This document shows positions 859 to 7,499 of a stretch of DNA of 16,549 nt, piece after piece; positions within the stretch are counted from its first letter, which is position 1, and each line of letters opens with the position of its first letter. Location of the stretch: contig DMPD01000331.1 of assembly GCA_003456125.1 (NCBI GenBank), positions 1 to 16,549 on the forward strand. The letters are read 5' to 3'. Source of the DNA: Cyanobacteria bacterium UBA8156 (GTDB lineage Bacteria > Cyanobacteriota > Cyanobacteriia > Pseudanabaenales > Pseudanabaenaceae). A program made the position numbers and the translations under genes. The notes under the pieces were generated by a model. It was not told the origin of the DNA. It made no database searches and was given only the letters and a program-made list of their open reading frames with translations.

Positions 859-1033
859 AAAAGCAACCGGAAAATCATCCGATGTCCCTAACATCTCTGA
901 GAAGACTGTGAAAAATCACCTCATCCACATTTTTCGTGAACTGCACGTCAAAAGCCGCAGCGAGTTGATGGCGCGGATGCGATCGAGCATCGCCTACACT
1001 GGAAACGCATCCACCCAAGGAACCACACCATGA
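776..1033 (+). pseudogene. Remnant of a LuxR/NarL-family response regulator (HTH C-terminus only)
   Basis: The frame runs from a GTG at 776 to a TGA at 1031-1033. The last third reads as the end of a NarL/LuxR helix-turn-helix: NISEKTVKNHLIHIFREL, then HVKSRSELMARM. This covers the recognition helix and the last helix. The receiver domain and the first HTH helices, normally about 150 residues, are missing. What precedes is the repeated tail of the histidine kinase. In cyanobacteria such kinases often sit next to a NarL-type regulator, so the likely history is a deletion that joined the 3' end of the kinase gene to the 3' end of its partner regulator. The fragment is unlikely to bind DNA alone. 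Its stop overlaps the cinA start (ATGA), so it may still provide translational coupling to cinA. Confidence 0.65.
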
Positions 1034-2280
1034 CTGCGAAAGGGGCAGAAATCGTCTGCGTCGGCACCGAGATGCTGTTGGGGGAAATTGTTAACACCAA
1101 CGCCACCTATTTGGCCAAGGCGTTGGCGGAATTGGGCATTCCCCATTACTACCAGACGGTGGTGGGAGACAACCGGCAGCGCATTCACGGGGTGTTGGCC
1201 CTGGCCACCAGCCGCTCCCAAGTGGTGTTGTTTACGGGGGGGGTGGGGCCCACCCCCGACGACCTGACCACCGAGGCGATCGCCGAATTTTTTGGGGTGC
1301 CTTTGGTGGAGCATCCCGAATTGTGGCCGGACATCGAAGCCAGTTTTGCGCGGCGGGGTCGCCTGGCTCCGGCCAGCAACCGCAAACAGACGTTTTTGCC
1401 GGCGGGGGCGGCGGTGTTGCCCAATCCGGTGGGAACAGCGCCCGGCATGGTTTGGGAACCGCAACCGGGCTTGTTGATTTTGACGTTTCCGGGGGTGCCG
1501 ACCGAAATGCAGGCCATGTGGACGGCGACGGCGGTACCGGAACTGACGCAGCGGGGTCTGACGGGCGATCGCCTGCATTCGCGGATTTTGCACTACTGGG
1601 GTATTAGTGAGTCGGCCTTAGCGGAAAAGGTTCAGCCTTTTTTTGAACTGAGCGATCCGACGGTGGCCCCCTACGCCAGCAAAGGTCAGGTGCGGTTGCG
1701 GCTGACGACTCGGGGGCAAACGCCAGAAGCTGCCGCCGCGGTCTTGACCCCAATCGAGTCCCAAATTTTGGCCCTGACCGGTGAATACTGTTTTGGGCAA
1801 GACGACGATACCTTGGTGCGGGTGGTGGCCCGGCGGTTGCAGGCCCGGCAGGAAACCCTAGCAGTGGCGGAATCCTGTACGGGGGGTGGGCTGGGGCAGG
1901 CGTTGACGGCAGAGTCCGGGAGTTCGGCCTATTTTGTGGGTGGGGTCATCGCCTATAGCAACGAGGCGAAGGTGCGGCTGTTGGGGGTCAATCCCGAAAC
2001 CCTGACCGCCCACGGCGCGGTGAGCGGACCGGTGGCCGCCGAGATGGCGGTGGGGGCCCGAGCACGGTTGGGCAGCAATTGGGCGATCGCCATTACGGGC
2101 ATTGCGGGGCCGGGGGGCGCCACCCCTGAAAAGCCGGTGGGCACGGTCTGGATTGGGATAGCGGGGGCGGATGGGGTGCAAACCCACTTGGAGACCCTGG
2201 GCGATCGGCGGGGGCGGGACTGGGTACGGCAAACCAGTGTGGCGGCCGCGTTGGATCGGCTCCGGCGCCGGTTGGATTGA
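1030..2280 (+). CDS. cinA: CinA family protein (MoCF-like domain plus NMN deamidase/PncC-like domain)
   Basis: A 416-residue protein, the usual length for full CinA. The N-terminal domain (about residues 1-170) is of the MoaB/MogA fold and carries GTEMLLGEIVNTNATYLAK and TGGVGPTPDDLT, the nucleotide-binding signature. The C-terminal domain (about 260-416) has AESCTGGGLGQALT, GGVIAYSNEAK and ITGIAGPGGATPEKPVGT, typical of the nicotinamide mononucleotide deamidase (PncC) domain used to recycle pyridine nucleotides. In other bacteria the full-length protein also has ADP-ribose pyrophosphatase activity, and cinA is linked to competence in some. The ATG at 1030 overlaps the stop of the upstream HTH remnant by ATGA. 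The gene converges on modBC with 43 bp between stops. The resemblance of its first domain to molybdopterin-binding enzymes makes its place next to mod genes curious, but nothing in the sequence shows a link to molybdenum. Confidence 0.95.
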   Translation: MTAKGAEIVCVGTEMLLGEIVNTNATYLAKALAELGIPHYYQTVVGDNRQRIHGVLALATSRSQVVLFTGGVGPTPDDLTTEAIAEFFGVPLVEHPELWPDIEASFARRGRLAPASNRKQTFLPAGAAVLPNPVGTAPGMVWEPQPGLLILTFPGVPTEMQAMWTATAVPELTQRGLTGDRLHSRILHYWGISESALAEKVQPFFELSDPTVAPYASKGQVRLRLTTRGQTPEAAAAVLTPIESQILALTGEYCFGQDDDTLVRVVARRLQARQETLAVAESCTGGGLGQALTAESGSSAYFVGGVIAYSNEAKVRLLGVNPETLTAHGAVSGPVAAEMAVGARARLGSNWAIAITGIAGPGGATPEKPVGTVWIGIAGADGVQTHLETLGDRRGRDWVRQTSVAAALDRLRRRLD

Positions 2281-2323: not shown

Positions 2324-4159
2324 CTACAGGAGCCATAGTAAGCGCTGGGGGCACAGACTTACCCACCAGGGGAACGGAGCCGCCTGCAGAACCTGCCATT
2401 TTTCTTGGAACACTTCCGCTTGCAGGTGGTAATCATGGCTCCCGGTGGGCGGTGCATGGAGTTTGAGATAGATGGTCATGCGGTGGGGGGTCTCACTGGT
2501 CCAGGCGACCCAAGCAGGGAACGTGTTGGGCTGATTGGGATTATGGCCAAAGGTGAGGTGATGGGCGCGGATACCGATATGGGTGGCTTCGGCGGCAACG
2601 GCTTCGGCGGTTTGTAGGGTGCAGTGCCAAGCGTGGGCATAGACCGTATGGGCATGGATGACCTCAATGGGAGAAAAATTTTTGCACCCCGTGAGCTGGG
2701 CGACTCTCAGGGTGCGGGGACGATCGAAGACTTCACGCTTGGGAGCACAGGCGATCGCTTTGCCACCAGACAGAACCATCAACCTCTCGCAGACCCGATA
2801 GATCTCCTCCAGGTTATGACTCACAAAGAGGGTGCATCCGCCGTAGTCCGCCAGGGTTTGGATCAACTGCCGTTCCATCTGATGGCGCAGGTAGGTATCC
2901 AGGGCCGAAAAGGGTTCATCCAGCAGCAGGACTTGGGGTTCCGTCGCCAGGGCCCGCGCCAGGGCTACCCTCTGTTGCTGTCCCCCCGATAGCTGATGGG
3001 GGTAGCGATCGCCCAATCCCGATAACTGGAAAGCATCTAAGAAGTGGTGGATGCGTCCCCTGTGCTCTGGTTTGTTGAGGTGCTGTAGTCCAAAACCGAT
3101 ATTTTGGCTGACGGTCAGGTGCGGAAACAGGGCATAGTGCTGAAATACCAAACTCACTTTGCGCCGATGGCTGGGGACATTGATGCCCTGTTCCGAGTCA
3201 AAAAAGGTACGACTATTCAGAACAATGCGCCCACGGGTGGGGGTCTCTACCCCGGCAATGCACTTGAGGGCCATGCTCTTGCCCGATCCCGACCCTCCCA
3301 AAATGCCAAGGGTTTCCGCCTTTGCCCCAAACGCCATGTTCAGGCAGAAAGTACCCAGAACCTTCTCAATATCCACTTCCAAACCCACGTCCGTGGCCGA
3401 AGTCCGACCAAAGGTATGGAAGGAAGTGGGTATTTCGGCAGTGGGTGAGGCATTCGTCTCCACCACACCCCCTTTCTGGCGATGAATCCGCCCTTCAAAG
3501 TGCCCTTGCCACAGATTCACCAGGGCGATCGCCGCCAAGGAAAGCCCCATAATGGCCCCCGTCCAGAGCCACGCCTCCTCCATAGCCCCAGCTTCCACGG
3601 CAAAATAAATGGCCATGGGCATGGTTTGGGTTTCGCCGGGGATGTTGCCCGCCAGCATCAGGGTGGCGCCAAATTCCCCCAAGGCGCGGGCAAAGGACAG
3701 CACGGTGCCAGCGACAATGCCGGGCATGGACAGGGGCAGCAGCACCCGCCAAAAGATGCACCACCGCGAGGCACCTAGGGTTTGGGCGACCGCCAGCAGG
3801 CTCCCATCGACCTGTTCAAAGGCCCCCAAAACGGTTTTGTACATGAGGGGAAAAGCGACCACCGAGGCTGCCATCACTCCTCCGTACCAGGTGAAGATAA
3901 TTGAGAAATCAAACCGAGCCAGAATCTGCCCCAGTCCGCCATTTCGGCCAAACAGCACCAGCAAGAGAAACCCCACGACCGTGGGCGGCAGGATCAGGGG
4001 AGCCACCAAAATGCCCTCCAGCAAAGATTTCCAGCGTCCCCGATAGCCCAGCATCCCGTATGCCGTCCCCAAGCCCAAGAAAAAGACGGCGGTCGTGGCC
4101 AAACCGGCAATTTTCAGGGAAATCCAAAAGGGGGAAAAGTCCACAGCTTCTAGATTCAT
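2324..4159 (-). CDS. modBC: Molybdate ABC transporter, fused permease-ATPase (ModB-ModC)
   Basis: One chain of 611 residues combines the inner-membrane permease and the ATPase of the molybdate importer. Residues 1-220 are ModB: several hydrophobic helices and an EAA-type loop near 129-148 (GASRWCIFWRVLLPLSMPGI) that contacts the ATPase. A polar linker of about 35 residues follows. Residues 260-480 are ModC, with Walker A GGSGSGKS at 288-295, Q-loop VFQHY, signature LSGGQQQR at 390-397, Walker B VLLLDEP at 410-416 and the switch His in VSHN. The tail (about 490-611) is a divergent TOBE-like region. I chose the ATG at 4159, seven bases after the modA stop. A TTG at 4183 would add eight residues and overlap modA. 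ModBC fusions are known in cyanobacteria. The operon with modA assures Mo for nitrogenase. Confidence 0.94.
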   Translation of the reverse strand: MNLEAVDFSPFWISLKIAGLATTAVFFLGLGTAYGMLGYRGRWKSLLEGILVAPLILPPTVVGFLLLVLFGRNGGLGQILARFDFSIIFTWYGGVMAASVVAFPLMYKTVLGAFEQVDGSLLAVAQTLGASRWCIFWRVLLPLSMPGIVAGTVLSFARALGEFGATLMLAGNIPGETQTMPMAIYFAVEAGAMEEAWLWTGAIMGLSLAAIALVNLWQGHFEGRIHRQKGGVVETNASPTAEIPTSFHTFGRTSATDVGLEVDIEKVLGTFCLNMAFGAKAETLGILGGSGSGKSMALKCIAGVETPTRGRIVLNSRTFFDSEQGINVPSHRRKVSLVFQHYALFPHLTVSQNIGFGLQHLNKPEHRGRIHHFLDAFQLSGLGDRYPHQLSGGQQQRVALARALATEPQVLLLDEPFSALDTYLRHQMERQLIQTLADYGGCTLFVSHNLEEIYRVCERLMVLSGGKAIACAPKREVFDRPRTLRVAQLTGCKNFSPIEVIHAHTVYAHAWHCTLQTAEAVAAEATHIGIRAHHLTFGHNPNQPNTFPAWVAWTSETPHRMTIYLKLHAPPTGSHDYHLQAEVFQEKWQVLQAAPFPWWVSLCPQRLLWLL

Positions 4160-4166
4160 CAGGAGT

Positions 4167-4958
4167 TCACGGGGCACTGCCAAAACCGTACTTGGTGAAG
4201 ACCGGACGCGCGAGGGGCCCGCTCAAAAACTGGGCATAGATTTGGGCAGATTTTTGCTGGCGGCTGGCGGACACGATCGCTACAGGATAGACGATCGGAG
4301 AGTGAGAGTCTTTGGGGGCGATCGCCACCTGCCGAACCCGATCGGTGATTTTGGCATCGGTGACATACACCACCCCCGCATCGGCGTTGCCGCTCTCCAC
4401 GCTGGCCAGCACATTGCGGACGGAATTGCCAAATACCAGTTTGGGGCGAATTTGCTCCCAAAGGCCCAGATTGCGGAATACTTCCTCGGCGTACTGCCCA
4501 GCAGGGACGGAACGGGGTTCCCCCATCGAGATGCGCTTGATCTGAGGACTGGTGAGCTGGCGAAAATCCGTCAGCACCCCAGTGGAACTGCGGGGTACGA
4601 CCAAAACCAGACGGTTGGTGAGCAGATTGCGGCGGGTTTCGACAAGGATTCGTCCCTTGGCCTGGAGGGCATCCATCTGCCTGCTGGCGGCGGCAATGAA
4701 TACATCAATGGGTGCGCCCTGCTCAATCTGCTGTTGCAGGGCACCGGAGGCGGCAAAGCTGTACTTGACGGTGATGCCGGGATGGGCCGACTGAAACAGG
4801 GGCGTGACCTCCTTAAGGGCATCCTGCAAACTGGCCGCCGCCCCCACCAGCAAGTTGGAGGGTTGGGCGATCGCCCCATCGGGCATAGCAGAGGGCAAGC
4901 CGAGCGCCAGCCCCAATGCCAGCACGAAACCTAGGATTGCTATAATTTTTCTTCGCAT
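4167..4958 (-). CDS. modA: Molybdate ABC transporter, periplasmic substrate-binding protein ModA
   Basis: A 263-residue protein. It begins MRRK followed by a hydrophobic core and an Ala-rich cleavage region (near AIAQPSN, residues 29-35), a clear Sec signal peptide. The mature part carries ModA family features: VGAAASLQDALKEV at the start, FAASGALQQQIEQGAPIDVFIAA, and later ESGNADAGVVYVTDA, the second-lobe segment that helps bind the oxyanion. Ser residues in AAASL and ASGAL are the usual contacts for molybdate or tungstate. The protein delivers the anion to the ModBC fusion encoded directly downstream. AAGG lies seven bases ahead of the ATG. The gene is transcribed divergently from the RHH-Mop gene, 118 bp away, so shared control is likely. 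Confidence 0.95.
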   Translation of the reverse strand: MRRKIIAILGFVLALGLALGLPSAMPDGAIAQPSNLLVGAAASLQDALKEVTPLFQSAHPGITVKYSFAASGALQQQIEQGAPIDVFIAAASRQMDALQAKGRILVETRRNLLTNRLVLVVPRSSTGVLTDFRQLTSPQIKRISMGEPRSVPAGQYAEEVFRNLGLWEQIRPKLVFGNSVRNVLASVESGNADAGVVYVTDAKITDRVRQVAIAPKDSHSPIVYPVAIVSASRQQKSAQIYAQFLSGPLARPVFTKYGFGSAP

Positions 4959-5076
4959 AAACCAACCTTGTGATAGCGATACAGACCTACAGCTTGCTCT
5001 CAGGACTTGGCACTGGCGCTAGGATTGTAGGTAGACATTTCCTATCACGACTTACCAACTTATTTGGTATATCCTA
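4959..5076. promoter_or_regulatory. Divergent promoter region between modA and the RHH-Mop gene
   Basis: This 118-bp spacer separates two divergent Mo-related genes and must hold both promoters. GTGATAG at 4970-4976 and CTATCAC at 5042-5048 form an inverted pair 65 bp apart. The motif ACCAAC occurs near each start, at 4961 and 5054. I cannot assign -35/-10 boxes with confidence. No GTA-N8-TAC (NtcA) site was found. Confidence 0.55.
5053..5069. promoter_or_regulatory. 17-bp inverted repeat, candidate operator of the RHH-Mop/modA pair
   Basis: TACCAA-CTTAT-TTGGTA is a perfect 6-bp inverted repeat with a 5-bp spacer. It ends seven bases before the ATG of the RHH-Mop gene. RHH proteins bind as dimers to short inverted or tandem sites, so autoregulation is plausible. 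Its role is inferred from position and symmetry only. Confidence 0.45.
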
Positions 5077-5499
5077 ATGCCAAAGAAAGAGCAGGGCTGG
5101 ATCACCTTTCAATCATCCGCAGAAGAGCGGCAAATTCTGGAGCAGGTTTGCCAGCAATCTCAGCGTTCCAAAACCGAAGTACTGCGAGAACTGATCCGGC
5201 AGATGGGGCGATCGCTGCCCCCAAGCCGAACAGAATTGGCTGGGGAACCGACTGCCGACCTACCCATCCGCAGTCCCAAGCGCCAGACTGTCACCCTTAG
5301 CGCCCGCAACATCCTCAATGCGGAAGTGGTGCAGATGGTCAAGGGTACGGTCAACGCTGAAGTGACCTTGGCGATCGCCCCCGGTGTGGAATTGGTCGCC
5401 ACGATCACGCGCACCTCGGCCGAGGGATTGGGTTTGGTGCGGGGGAAGAAAGTTTTTGCCGTAATCAAGTCCAACAGCATCATACTTGCCACCGATTAG
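5077..5499 (+). CDS. Ribbon-helix-helix DNA-binding domain fused to a Mop (molybdate-binding) domain; candidate Mo-responsive regulator
   Basis: A 140-residue protein of two parts. Residues 8-44 fit a CopG/Arc-like ribbon-helix-helix: strand WITFQSS, helix AEERQILEQVCQQSQ, then SKTEVLRELIRQMG. A Pro/Arg-rich linker (45-72) leads to a single Mop/TOBE domain (about 74-140) with LSARNILNAEVVQMVKGTV, IAPGVELVATIT and GKKVFAVIKSNSIILA, the pattern of molbindins that bind molybdate or tungstate in oligomers. The C-terminal half is clearly similar to the small Mop protein at 7290-7499. Classical ModE has a winged-helix domain before its Mop domains; here an RHH fold replaces it. Divergence from modA and the inverted repeat ahead of the start suggest control of modABC and of itself. 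Domain identity is well supported; the regulatory role is inference. Confidence 0.85.
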   Translation: MPKKEQGWITFQSSAEERQILEQVCQQSQRSKTEVLRELIRQMGRSLPPSRTELAGEPTADLPIRSPKRQTVTLSARNILNAEVVQMVKGTVNAEVTLAIAPGVELVATITRTSAEGLGLVRGKKVFAVIKSNSIILATD

Positions 5500-5533
5500 G
5501 GGCTGGGGGTGAGCACAGCCATTCCCAAATCTA

Positions 5534-5550
5534 TGCAAAAACTGTTTGCA
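5534..5550. other. Inverted repeat in the spacer between convergent genes
   Basis: TGCAAA-AACTG-TTTGCA, 6-bp arms with a 5-bp loop, lies in the 134-bp spacer between the convergent ends of the RHH-Mop and dps genes. There is no T-run after it on either strand, so a terminator role is weakly supported. Apart from this and the hairpin at 5632 I see nothing in the spacer. Confidence 0.3.
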
Positions 5551-5631
5551 GTCCGAATCCCACGATCGAGTCATGGCTTGGCAAGATTGCATAACCTTAT
5601 TCCCTGCCTCAGTCCCGTGATCCCAGGAAAG

Positions 5632-5649: not shown

Positions 5650-6179
5650 TGCACCAAAGAATCGGCTTCGAGAAAGTGTTGGTTGTGATAGGCGCGTTCT
5701 TCCAATTGCAAGAGGATACCATCGTAGAGATAGCGAGTGGCGCGATCGCCCAAACTCTCTGCTTGAGAAGCCAAGCGCCGGACAACCTCAATCAGTGCCT
5801 GCTCCGATCGCAAATCCTGCTCGATCCTCTGCCGCACCGTAAAAATGCCATCGGGTTCGGGGTGAAAACAGCACAGTTCCGCCAACTTGGCAAAACTGGC
5901 CACCGGTACGCCGCCCAAACCATCCAAGCGTTCGCCCAGATCGTGGACGTGCTTTTGGCTCTGCTGGACATTTTCGTGGAACCAGTTGTGCACCATATAG
6001 AACTCACTGCCCTTGACCACAAAGTGGTGCTTTTGGTACTGCAAATACAAGGCTTGACAACTGGCAAGAACCGCATTCAATCCCTCGCAGATGGGGGCGG
6101 TTTGGGCGATTTCCAGCCCTACCACGTTTTCGTGGACAGTGCCCCACGCTTGGGTCGGGATGGTAGTTTGAGGAATCAT
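5634..6179 (-). CDS. dpsA: Dps-family ferritin-like protein (DpsA)
   Basis: A 181-residue protein with the Dps core: [20 protein letters not shown], then [14 protein letters not shown], and a four-helix-bundle length. Dps dodecamers oxidise Fe(II) with peroxide and store the iron, protecting DNA and proteins. Aligned by eye to E. coli Dps, His52, His64 and Glu83 match ferroxidase residues H51, H63 and E82, but the positions of D67 and D78 are His68 and His79. As I recall, a similar Asp-to-His change is described in the Thermosynechococcus elongatus DpsA, whose site binds zinc. AAAGGAGA lies five bases before the ATG. It follows the CBS-CP12 gene by 70 nt on the same strand. Its place in the nif region suggests guarding the iron-rich, oxygen-sensitive nitrogenase. 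Confidence 0.92.
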
Positions 6180-6249: not shown

Positions 6250-6894
6250 CTAACCTGCGGTTGCTGGGACAGAAGCGGTCAGGTCTTGGTGACGGATCCG
6301 CAGAATTTCGGGATGCTCCAGACAGTACTGCTGGAAGGCGGTGATTTCCACAGGCTGGGTGTTTTCCAGATAGCTGGATTCCGCCTCCAGGTCTTCTACC
6401 ACCGCCCATGCTTTCACACAATCATCGGCATCAAAACCCTCGGTGCTGCAGATTTCGCGAGCATTGGCGATCGCCTGGTTCAAACTTCGCGCCAAGGCAG
6501 AAGATTTGGGGTTTTCCAGATAATCACCACGGTTGAGAATGTTGGTCAGGGTCACCATCCCCAGCAGGGTGCCTTGAATCACGGGCGCAACACGGATACC
6601 CGTATGGGCGAACAGGCGCGCCACATACTCCACAGCCAAGTCGGGATTGACAGTGATACAGGGTTTGGTCATGATTTCGTAGACCCGCATCCGACTGGGG
6701 TCTTTGCCATAGGCCACCACCTTGTAGACAATGTCGGTTTGGGTGACAATCCCATAGGCATCATCGGGGTCGGAAATATCCACAATCAGGGCTCCCAGTC
6801 CCTTGAGATGCATCAACCGAATCACTTCGGCAACGGTGGCGGAACCTTTGACCAAAGGCACGTTTTTGGTCATAATGTCGACGGCGTGTAGCAT
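6250..6894 (-). CDS. CBS-pair protein with C-terminal CP12 domain
   Basis: A 214-residue protein. Residues 1-125 hold two CBS motifs: [20 protein letters not shown] with [13 protein letters not shown], and [20 protein letters not shown] with GMVTLTNIL. Such pairs usually bind adenine nucleotides. Residues 138-205 match CP12, the small disordered protein that joins phosphoribulokinase and GAPDH and inactivates them in the dark: NAREIC, then [18 protein letters not shown] and YCLEHPE. The first redox Cys pair (Cys149, Cys159, CX9C) is kept. In the second pair only Cys191 remains, the partner position being Ile200, and the AWD core reads AWA. CBS-CP12 fusions are known in cyanobacteria, but their role is unclear. 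The start at 6894 has AAGGAG ahead of it; a longer frame from 7011 would run into fdxB. The gene sits between fdxB and dps. Confidence 0.88.
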
Positions 6895-6935
6895 GGCTTT
6901 TCTCCTTGTGGCGTGAATTTGGATAGATGGTTTGA

Positions 6936-7229
6936 CTAGTTCAACGACTGCGGTGCGTGGCTGTAGCAGTTTTTCGGACAAATGCGCGAGCAGGACTGAC
7001 AGCCAATGCACAGCTCAGCATGGGCGATCGTCATCACCTTGCGCTCGCTTTCTTCTTCCTCTTCATCGACAAACTCAAATTCATCGTTCACCGCTTGCAG
7101 GCGCAGGACATTTCTGCCACAGACCTTCAAACAGCGGCCGCAGCCCAGACAGCGGGTGATGTCAATGTTCTGGACGAATCGAGGTGTCCAAGGGGTGCCC
7201 CCTTGGGTTAGGGCAGTTTGGTAAGACAT
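6936..7229 (-). CDS. fdxB: nif-associated 2x[4Fe-4S] ferredoxin FdxB (ferredoxin III type)
   Basis: A 97-residue bacterial-type ferredoxin. Two cluster motifs are visible: [11 protein letters not shown] near residue 27 and [12 protein letters not shown] near residue 74, each CX2CX2CX3C. Between them is an acidic stretch, [15 protein letters not shown], longer than in short clostridial ferredoxins and typical of nif-linked FdxB. It probably carries electrons for nitrogenase or for FeMo-cofactor synthesis; its exact partner is not known to me. AGGAG lies nine bases before the ATG. It heads a minus-strand group with the CBS-CP12 gene (41 nt away) and dps, and is divergent from a mop gene. Confidence 0.93.
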
Positions 7230-7289
7230 GATACATTTCTCCTGTGCGTCCGTGTAGTATTTTCGGCTTGGTTTTGGCTAAGGGATGCT
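7230..7289. promoter_or_regulatory. Divergent spacer between fdxB and mop
   Basis: Sixty bases separate the two divergent starts and must carry at least the fdxB promoter. AATACT on the minus strand (7256-7261) is a possible -10 box with no clear -35. No NtcA-type site was found, so the assignment rests on gene orientation. Confidence 0.35.
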
Positions 7290-7499
7290 ATGGAAGTTAG
7301 TGCTCGCAACCTTTTCAAGGGAACGGTTAAGAGTCTTGTGGTTGGACTGGTAAACGTCGAAGTTATCCTTGAAATTGCGCCTGGGGTAGAAGTGGCGGCG
7401 GTAATTACGAAGGCTTCGAGCGAGAAGCTAGGTCTATCCCTGGGCAAGGAAGCCTATGCCGTCATCAAAGCATCCGATGTGATGTTGGCAGTAGATTAA
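7290..7499 (+). CDS. mop: Molbindin-like Mop protein (molybdate/tungstate binding)
   Basis: A 69-residue protein that is one complete Mop domain: EVSARNLFKGTVKSLVVGLV, NVEVILEIAPGVEVAAVIT, then GLSLGKEAYAVIKASDVMLA. Molbindins form oligomers that bind molybdate at subunit interfaces and are thought to store or buffer Mo in the cytoplasm. The ATG at 7290 is preceded by AAGGGA; upstream codons in the frame do not match the family. It is on the plus strand between fdxB and fdxH, both on the minus strand, so it has its own promoter or is read from another transcript. It is close in sequence to the C-terminal half of the RHH-Mop protein, which suggests one arose from the other. Confidence 0.93.
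   Translation: MEVSARNLFKGTVKSLVVGLVNVEVILEIAPGVEVAAVITKASSEKLGLSLGKEAYAVIKASDVMLAVD

Follow-up and report, generated by a model that had tools for sequence, protein, structure and literature searches.

ModE, the regulator of molybdate uptake genes with which the protein described here is most closely compared, consists of a winged helix and a di-Mop module (TIGR00637), whereas our protein, hereafter RHH-Mop, carries a predicted ribbon-helix-helix (RHH) domain, a disordered linker and one Mop domain, with TACCAA half-sites as its probable targets. NikR couples an RHH domain to an ACT-type nickel sensor, while in RHH-Mop the partner is a Mop/TOBE oxyanion sensor and the operator is different. 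Further pairings are known from other bacteria: TunR joins a recombinase-like DNA-binding domain to TOBE, again for W/Mo and outside ModE, and both TunR and the TaoR-like regulators use DNA-binding folds other than that of RHH-Mop. The TaoR-like proteins are presented, in the excerpt of PMC11980592 available to us, as non-ModE proteins in which TOBE is paired with a DNA-binding domain for W/Mo. The storage proteins Mop, ModG and Tub, as far as the excerpted literature goes, have the same Mop domain and ligand residues as RHH-Mop and are devoid of a DNA-binding domain.

In cyanobacteria, which are major N2 fixers and nitrate users, molybdenum sensing has so far rested on the label ‘modE homolog’, a gene suspected upstream of modA in Anabaena variabilis (accessible part of the review PMC4284476, citing Zahalak 2004). 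In genome G397 (main contig of 6.378 Mb) modA and modBC are separated by 2.68 Mb, and RHH-Mop is encoded divergently from modA. From this genome it follows, very probably and short of proof, that the A. variabilis ‘modE homolog’ belongs to the RHH-Mop family; by the domain content of the G397 gene it is not ModE. Among open-licence PMC titles and abstracts no paper on RHH-Mop was recognised, and, within the portions of the sources consulted, the identity of the protein (RHH, not ModE), its probable operator and its predicted regulon are new, while the idea of a molybdenum regulator beside modA was already known. In our judgement RHH-Mop is, with high probability, a one-component molybdate-responsive repressor of modA, modBC and its own gene.

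The stretch of DNA analysed as a whole (the window, 16,549 nucleotides) is contig DMPD01000331.1 of Cyanobacteria bacterium UBA8156, from an assembly of 2.31 Mb that is 77.6% complete. Its features relevant to molybdate are as follows:

2324..4183, minus strand: modBC fusion (permease and ATPase), probable target together with modA (profile matches)
4167..4958, minus strand: modA, molybdate-binding protein, probable target (TIGR01256, 224.8 bits)
4959..5076, no strand: divergent spacer between modA and the RHH-Mop gene, 118 bp (ORF coordinates)
5020..5025, plus strand: TAGGAT, possible -10 of the RHH-Mop gene (by eye)
5024..5029, minus strand: TACAAT, possible -10 of modA (by eye)
5053..5069, no strand: probable operator TACCAACTTATTTGGTA (TACCAA-N5-TTGGTA), a shared inverted repeat with presumed binding
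5077..5499, plus strand: RHH-Mop regulator gene, 140 aa (ORF and domain matches)
5077..5214, plus strand: RHH domain, residues 1-46, presumed to bind DNA (predicted fold and family alignment)
5215..5295, plus strand: linker, residues 47-73 (pLDDT below 50, varying across the RHH-Mop family)
5296..5493, plus strand: putative molybdate-sensing Mop/TOBE domain, residues 74-139 (profile matches and ligand residues)
7260..7499, plus strand: stand-alone Mop protein, 79 aa, probably for molybdenum storage (profile matches)

The modBC reading frame opens with TTG at 4183, and its true start is probably an ATG near 4159, as judged by eye; Pfam found no TOBE domain in this fusion. Both -10 boxes were placed by eye only, because a consensus scan of 4900-5600 gave no sigma-70 promoters (nor terminators); TAGGAT or TAGAAT was seen again, also by eye, in spacers of relatives. 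A Moco riboswitch or another known RNA was considered for the window and rejected, no Rfam match being obtained.

The preliminary description of this DNA had proposed an RHH domain fused to a Mop domain in a gene divergent from modA, with structure prediction of the N-terminus as a check. The gene order held, with the 118-bp spacer between the two genes. The Mop part scored above curated cut-offs (PF03459, 59 bits against 22.3; TIGR00638, 66.7 against 55) and forms a single stretch, residues 74-139. For the N-terminus the prediction returned an RHH-like fold, with the expected strand at residues 8-13 and predicted helices at 15-28 and 32-45, which is the strand-helix-helix arrangement of the RHH (MetJ/Arc/CopG) superfamily. 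The N-terminal domain thus resembles RHH proteins by its predicted fold, and its scores are below Pfam gathering thresholds (RHH_1, 12.3 against 20.5 bits; RHH_9, 14.4 against 23.4). A weak RHH_1 match recurred in 33 of 40 relatives, and an unrelated model matched in 23 of the 40. Foldseek with the RHH domain gave no match at E ≤ 0.001, the RHH profile found nothing at E below 0.5 among PDB sequences, and in the whole-model fold comparison the Mop part was the only part matched. Residues T10, F11, Q12, R30, K32, T33 and R37 of the RHH part are invariant in 50 aligned sequences.

An ungapped alignment placed the type-2 ligands of Tub, given in the excerpted PMC11980592 as Ser4, Arg6, Ser40, Lys60 and Ala61, on S75, R77, T111, K131 and S132 of RHH-Mop, correspondingly; the type-2 oxyanion ligand residues are thus present, with Thr at the position of Tub Ser40, as far as this source allows the comparison. 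S75, R77, T111 and K131 are invariant in the 50 aligned sequences. Having such a domain, RHH-Mop might be a molybdenum storage protein whose N-terminal extension plays no role on DNA, as the names of its relatives (‘molybdopterin-binding protein’, ‘TOBE domain-containing protein’ or ‘transporter’) would allow. We find this barely credible, for of the 26 positions that do not vary in the family alignment 17 fall in the N-terminus, which has an RHH-like fold and, as described below, tracks a DNA repeat, and the same window encodes a separate Mop protein.

Membership in ModE was considered for the protein and for the class. TIGR00637 was not among the five NCBIfam families matching RHH-Mop at E ≤ 1, and the ModE equivalog NF007957 matched only its Mop part, with 27.5 of 369 bits; judged by its sequence, which has neither the winged helix nor a second Mop domain, RHH-Mop is outside the ModE family. 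The suggestion that it stands in the place of a missing ModE was upheld at a larger scale: TIGR00637 exceeded its cut-off in 0 of the 388 genomes of the class and in 2 of 14 control genomes. Candidates for ModE elsewhere in the class (265 of the 388 genomes match at E ≤ 0.001) were rejected, the best reaching 36.3 bits against a cut-off of 98.5, and the weak ModE-like match checked in locus L061 was a LysR-type HTH_1. It should be added that the weak ModE-like matches in L060, L061, L062, L064, L065 and L070 belong to ORFs some 690-720 aa long, which could, at a guess, be Mo-dependent repressors of the VnfR type.

A protein search with the window protein gave 360 relatives, and a second one started from a Nostocales relative gave 969; organism names among the best 120 of the 360 are cyanobacterial, with the same kinds of names among the best 120 of the 969, and database names among the relatives listed are ‘TOBE domain-containing’, ‘molybdopterin-binding’ and ‘transporter’. 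Some match to RHH-Mop occurs in 158 of the 388 class genomes, in many of them to Mop proteins only. We counted as carriers 65 genomes among the matches listed (mostly full-length, a few split or partial) and the window's own genome, 66 in total; at the thresholds used, modA was present in 64 and modBC in 58 of those 65. Across the 35 members searched of the window's family, full-length RHH-Mop occurs in its own genome only and two others have the RHH part alone; lateral transfer or a misplaced contig is possible for this lone copy. The gene-order set comprises 80 of 267 relatives, as kept in a search of genome contigs. In 30 of the 80 loci modA is directly upstream of RHH-Mop; among the remaining 50 are loci at contig ends as well as second copies, e.g. 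in Nostoc sp. NMS7, where L127 is beside modA and L131 is not. The genus of G117 (Anabaena sp. 4-3) has RHH-Mop in 13 of 13 genomes, with modA beside it in 12; among the 12 loci fetched (L280-L291), 11 have modA and the same 11 an exact copy of the repeat described next, and G117 itself has modA there.

The repeat at 5053-5069 begins the evidence from DNA. It lies 7 bp from the ATG of the RHH-Mop gene and about 94 bp from that of modA, and for this reason the case for direct control of modA is drawn from relatives. The window's own 2.31 Mb assembly has one exact copy of TACCAA-N5-TTGGTA only, this one; at two mismatches there are 63 copies against 71 for the reversed control, which is chance level, and therefore only the exact site is meaningful in this assembly. 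Across 31 modA/RHH-Mop spacers (30 named loci and the window) the repeat is exact in 23 and present with at most one mismatch in 29, compared with two exact copies in 884 kb of DNA flanking the same loci. Hexamer enrichment without a prior ranked TACCAA first in three of four upstream sets (spacer, orphan and separate-modA) and third for modBC.

Copies of RHH-Mop away from modA formed an orphan set of 50, of which 49 had at least 100 bp upstream (L101 was dropped). Of the 49, 18 have an exact repeat within 250 bp, 34 have one with at most one mismatch and 36 with at most two, and the other 13 have none there even at two mismatches. In many Nostoc orphans the repeat lies about 220 bp off instead of at the ATG. 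L105, L110, L137, L150 and other Nostoc orphans show, upstream of position 6001, TTGGTA-N6-TACCAA around a TAGAAT box near the gene, in place of the repeat otherwise seen at the ATG, and by eye many such orphans are near a CBS-like and an FtsH-like gene.

If the repeat is the operator, it is expected to stay in front of modA when the two genes part. Upstream DNA of about 430 bp (290 bp for one gene) was read for 17 modA genes of carriers that are not beside RHH-Mop, namely 15 main and two second copies; G167, where the modA match began at residue 76, was left out. The repeat is exact in 8 of the 17, within one mismatch in 15 and within two in 16. For contrast, 60 genomes without an RHH-Mop match were searched for modA, which 47 of them have, and 40 of the 50 modA rows were read (10 weaker, partial or second rows were omitted); contig ends left 160-196 bp in two of these regions and 335 bp in a third. 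Here the exact repeat occurs in 0 of 40, and one region (G142) has it with one mismatch. Fisher's p is 1.5e-5 for exact sites and 9e-11 at one mismatch, uncorrected for shared ancestry, and 13 of the 17 separated cases belong to one family, f32. Half-sites number 7.84 per kb before separated modA against 0.9 in genomes without RHH-Mop. The repeat was also absent at modA in G166, a non-carrier of f32, in G224, a non-carrier whose genus also includes carriers, and in those non-carriers of f1, the window's own family, whose upstream DNA was read; nor did it occur within one mismatch upstream of three less similar binding-protein paralogs.

These positions bear on whether RHH-Mop might instead act as an activator, or mainly on its own gene with another factor in charge of modA. 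The window site, between the candidate -10 at 5020 and the regulator's ATG, suits autoregulation, and sites before separated modA begin very roughly 65-260 bp upstream of the start codon, not always at the promoter core. Yet modA and modBC retain sites where they are apart from the regulator, which self-control alone would not require, and molybdenum represses a Mo-transport gene in A. variabilis according to the accessible part of PMC4284476. We regard such an arrangement as improbable, noting that the chances we assign to the alternatives overlap.

Regions upstream of modBC, where it is not directly behind modA, were read in 21 cases, 15 plus six from the Anabaena-type genus; in G117, G154, G390 and G392 modBC is within 2 kb of RHH-Mop, in regions that do not overlap the modA/RHH-Mop spacer. 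All 16 facing TACCAA..TTGGTA pairs 6-60 bp apart sit at 11 (two), 22 (eleven) or 32 bp (three), a pattern that arose after restriction to facing pairs and addition of the six genomes, and such a pair occurs in 14 of the 21 regions. Exact N5 or N16 pairs are present in 12 of the 21 (two of each in 846 kb of background), and three further regions have an N5 site with one mismatch; G118, G143, G165 and G253 have neither a facing pair nor an N5 site within one mismatch. Among the first 15 regions, six were without an exact N5/N16 pair or an N5 site within one mismatch, and two of these have the 32-bp pair. These spacings correspond to one, two or three turns of the helix, as would suit dimers lying side by side on the same face of the DNA. 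When all half-site pairs beyond the palindrome were tested for phasing, 0 of 2000 random placements reached the observed value in sets A and B, and 389 and 1032 of 2000 did in sets C and D, which is not significant; since the signal is confined to A and B, sets that share ancestry, we do not rely on long-range phasing. If RHH-Mop controls molybdate uptake genes as ModE does, the observation that bears on it is the repeat at modA and modBC in trans.

Genome-wide, 34 exact sites were found in 20 carriers (reversed control, 14) versus six in 20 non-carriers (control, 10), of which 16 have a modA match. By coordinates, 22 of the 34 carrier sites belong to mod-related loci. RHH-Mop, modA or modBC accounts for 16 of them and an accessory locus for five (G136, G150, G167, G197 and G338), and the last, in G167, precedes a Mop gene that neighbours RHH-Mop. 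In four of the 20 carriers (G040, G049, G104 and G114) none of the exact sites is at a mod locus. The remaining sites that were read (6 of 12 in carriers and 5 of 6 in non-carriers) are all within ORFs of at least 100 aa. In G338 a second RHH-Mop copy (L204 84-557, minus strand) is divergent from modBC with an exact repeat between them, another RHH-Mop being beside modA. In G150, G338 and G167 a gene with an HSDR_N-type domain follows the accessory site at a distance of 42-43 bp. This gene, with a domain of the type I restriction R-subunit N-terminus, is an orphan (L232 3033-5533, L233 3255-4328 and L234 1749-2987, correspondingly); in G150 the next genes encode a luciferase-like monooxygenase and a nitrogenase-associated protein (TIGR01616), and a Mop gene is close by.

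The RHH part also occurs by itself. RHH-only genes without Mop in G374 (L205 1500-1697, minus strand) and G286 (L206 about 920-1129, plus strand) have an exact repeat 6 bp before the ATG, and those in G006 and G033 have no exact repeat in the stretch read. The repeat being kept at such paralogs, comparison of these sequences points to the RHH domain as the part of RHH-Mop that would read it. The L205 gene is between homocitrate-synthase-like and 2OG-Fe(II) oxygenase-like genes, and the neighbours in L206 look similar by eye.

The same data speak to two other readings of the repeat, as a hairpin in RNA or as the target of some other regulator that happens to accompany RHH-Mop. In many loci it stands just before the ATG, where a hairpin in the mRNA could affect translation; against this, half-sites are both inverted and direct, at 11, 22 and 32 bp, and they occur far upstream of modA and modBC, as befits an operator in DNA, and Rfam has nothing in the window. 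The repeat furthermore tracks RHH-Mop when the genes are apart and precedes the two RHH-only paralogs, which makes either version very unlikely.

For the repressor reading, the computation supports the two-domain build, the kept ligand residues, the conserved repeat and the link of repeat and regulator where the genes are apart; repression itself, molybdate as co-repressor, physical binding and overlap with the modA promoter we infer. RHH domains would pair as dimers and bind TACCAA half-sites, the usual target being two facing half-sites with centres 11 bp (one helical turn) or 22 bp apart. With enough molybdate, the Mop domains would bind it, fix the arrangement of the RHH dimers and tighten their hold on DNA, so that the loaded protein would shut down modA, modBC and its own gene; when molybdate is scarce, RHH-Mop would release the DNA and the uptake genes would be expressed. 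The ModE-like logic with a different fold, as first suggested for this gene, is supported by the RHH-like prediction, the invariant ligand residues, the repeat in the modA spacer, its tracking of the regulator elsewhere and the 0 of 388 genomes with ModE over the cut-off. Sequence comparison suggests that RHH-Mop controls the molybdenum uptake genes of many cyanobacteria. A different DNA-binding fold and a probable operator mean that the regulator can be annotated and its regulon predicted; it also lengthens the list of DNA-binding domains to which a Mop sensor is fused, a hint that molybdate control came together on more than one occasion.

The sensed ligand might be another oxyanion (tungstate or vanadate), or the protein might act constitutively with Mop serving for assembly only. 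Tub binds tungstate and molybdate alike in vitro, according to the excerpt of PMC11980592, and the RHH-only paralogs keep the repeat in spite of having no Mop. The probable targets, however, are molybdate uptake genes (modA of the window, TIGR01256, 224.8 bits) and the ligand side chains are invariant, and we hold a ligand other than molybdate, or none, to be unlikely.

More tentatively, the molybdate-responsive repressor may be a hexamer whose three RHH dimers, on flexible linkers, read phased half-sites, a reading by analogy that we think doubtful. Tub, a single-Mop protein, forms a hexamer of three dimers (PMC11980592, excerpt), and by that model one RHH-Mop particle would carry three RHH dimers. 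On the DNA side, spacers of the window's close relatives L073, L074, L076 and L078 have three half-sites at 11-bp steps, unlike the window, and 22-bp pairs precede many modBC genes. If it were true, operator geometry would set gene-specific molybdenum thresholds, and the RHH-only paralogs would be Mo-blind competitors at the same sites.

It had also been suggested that RHH-Mop sets the molybdenum supply for nitrogenase. This stood in part: nifD over the cut-off is commoner in carriers among the matches listed (39 of 66, or 45 of 66 with split nifD in six more) than in other genomes (78 of 322), and yet 21 of the 66 show no nifD, whole over the cut-off or split, three of these (G268, G321 and G343) being from assemblies less than 90% complete. 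The regulator is therefore not specific to nitrogenase, and presumably follows molybdate use more widely, nitrate reductase included. In the window itself, a Dps/ferritin-like gene, a CBS-CP12 gene and the stand-alone Mop gene are 3' of RHH-Mop, and beyond them are nifW, a FeMo-co binding-type gene, nifN, two ORFs taken for nifE and nifK by order and look, and nifD. The CBS-CP12 gene (6250-7011, minus strand), in which CBS domains are fused to CP12, is thus located between the mod and nif genes.
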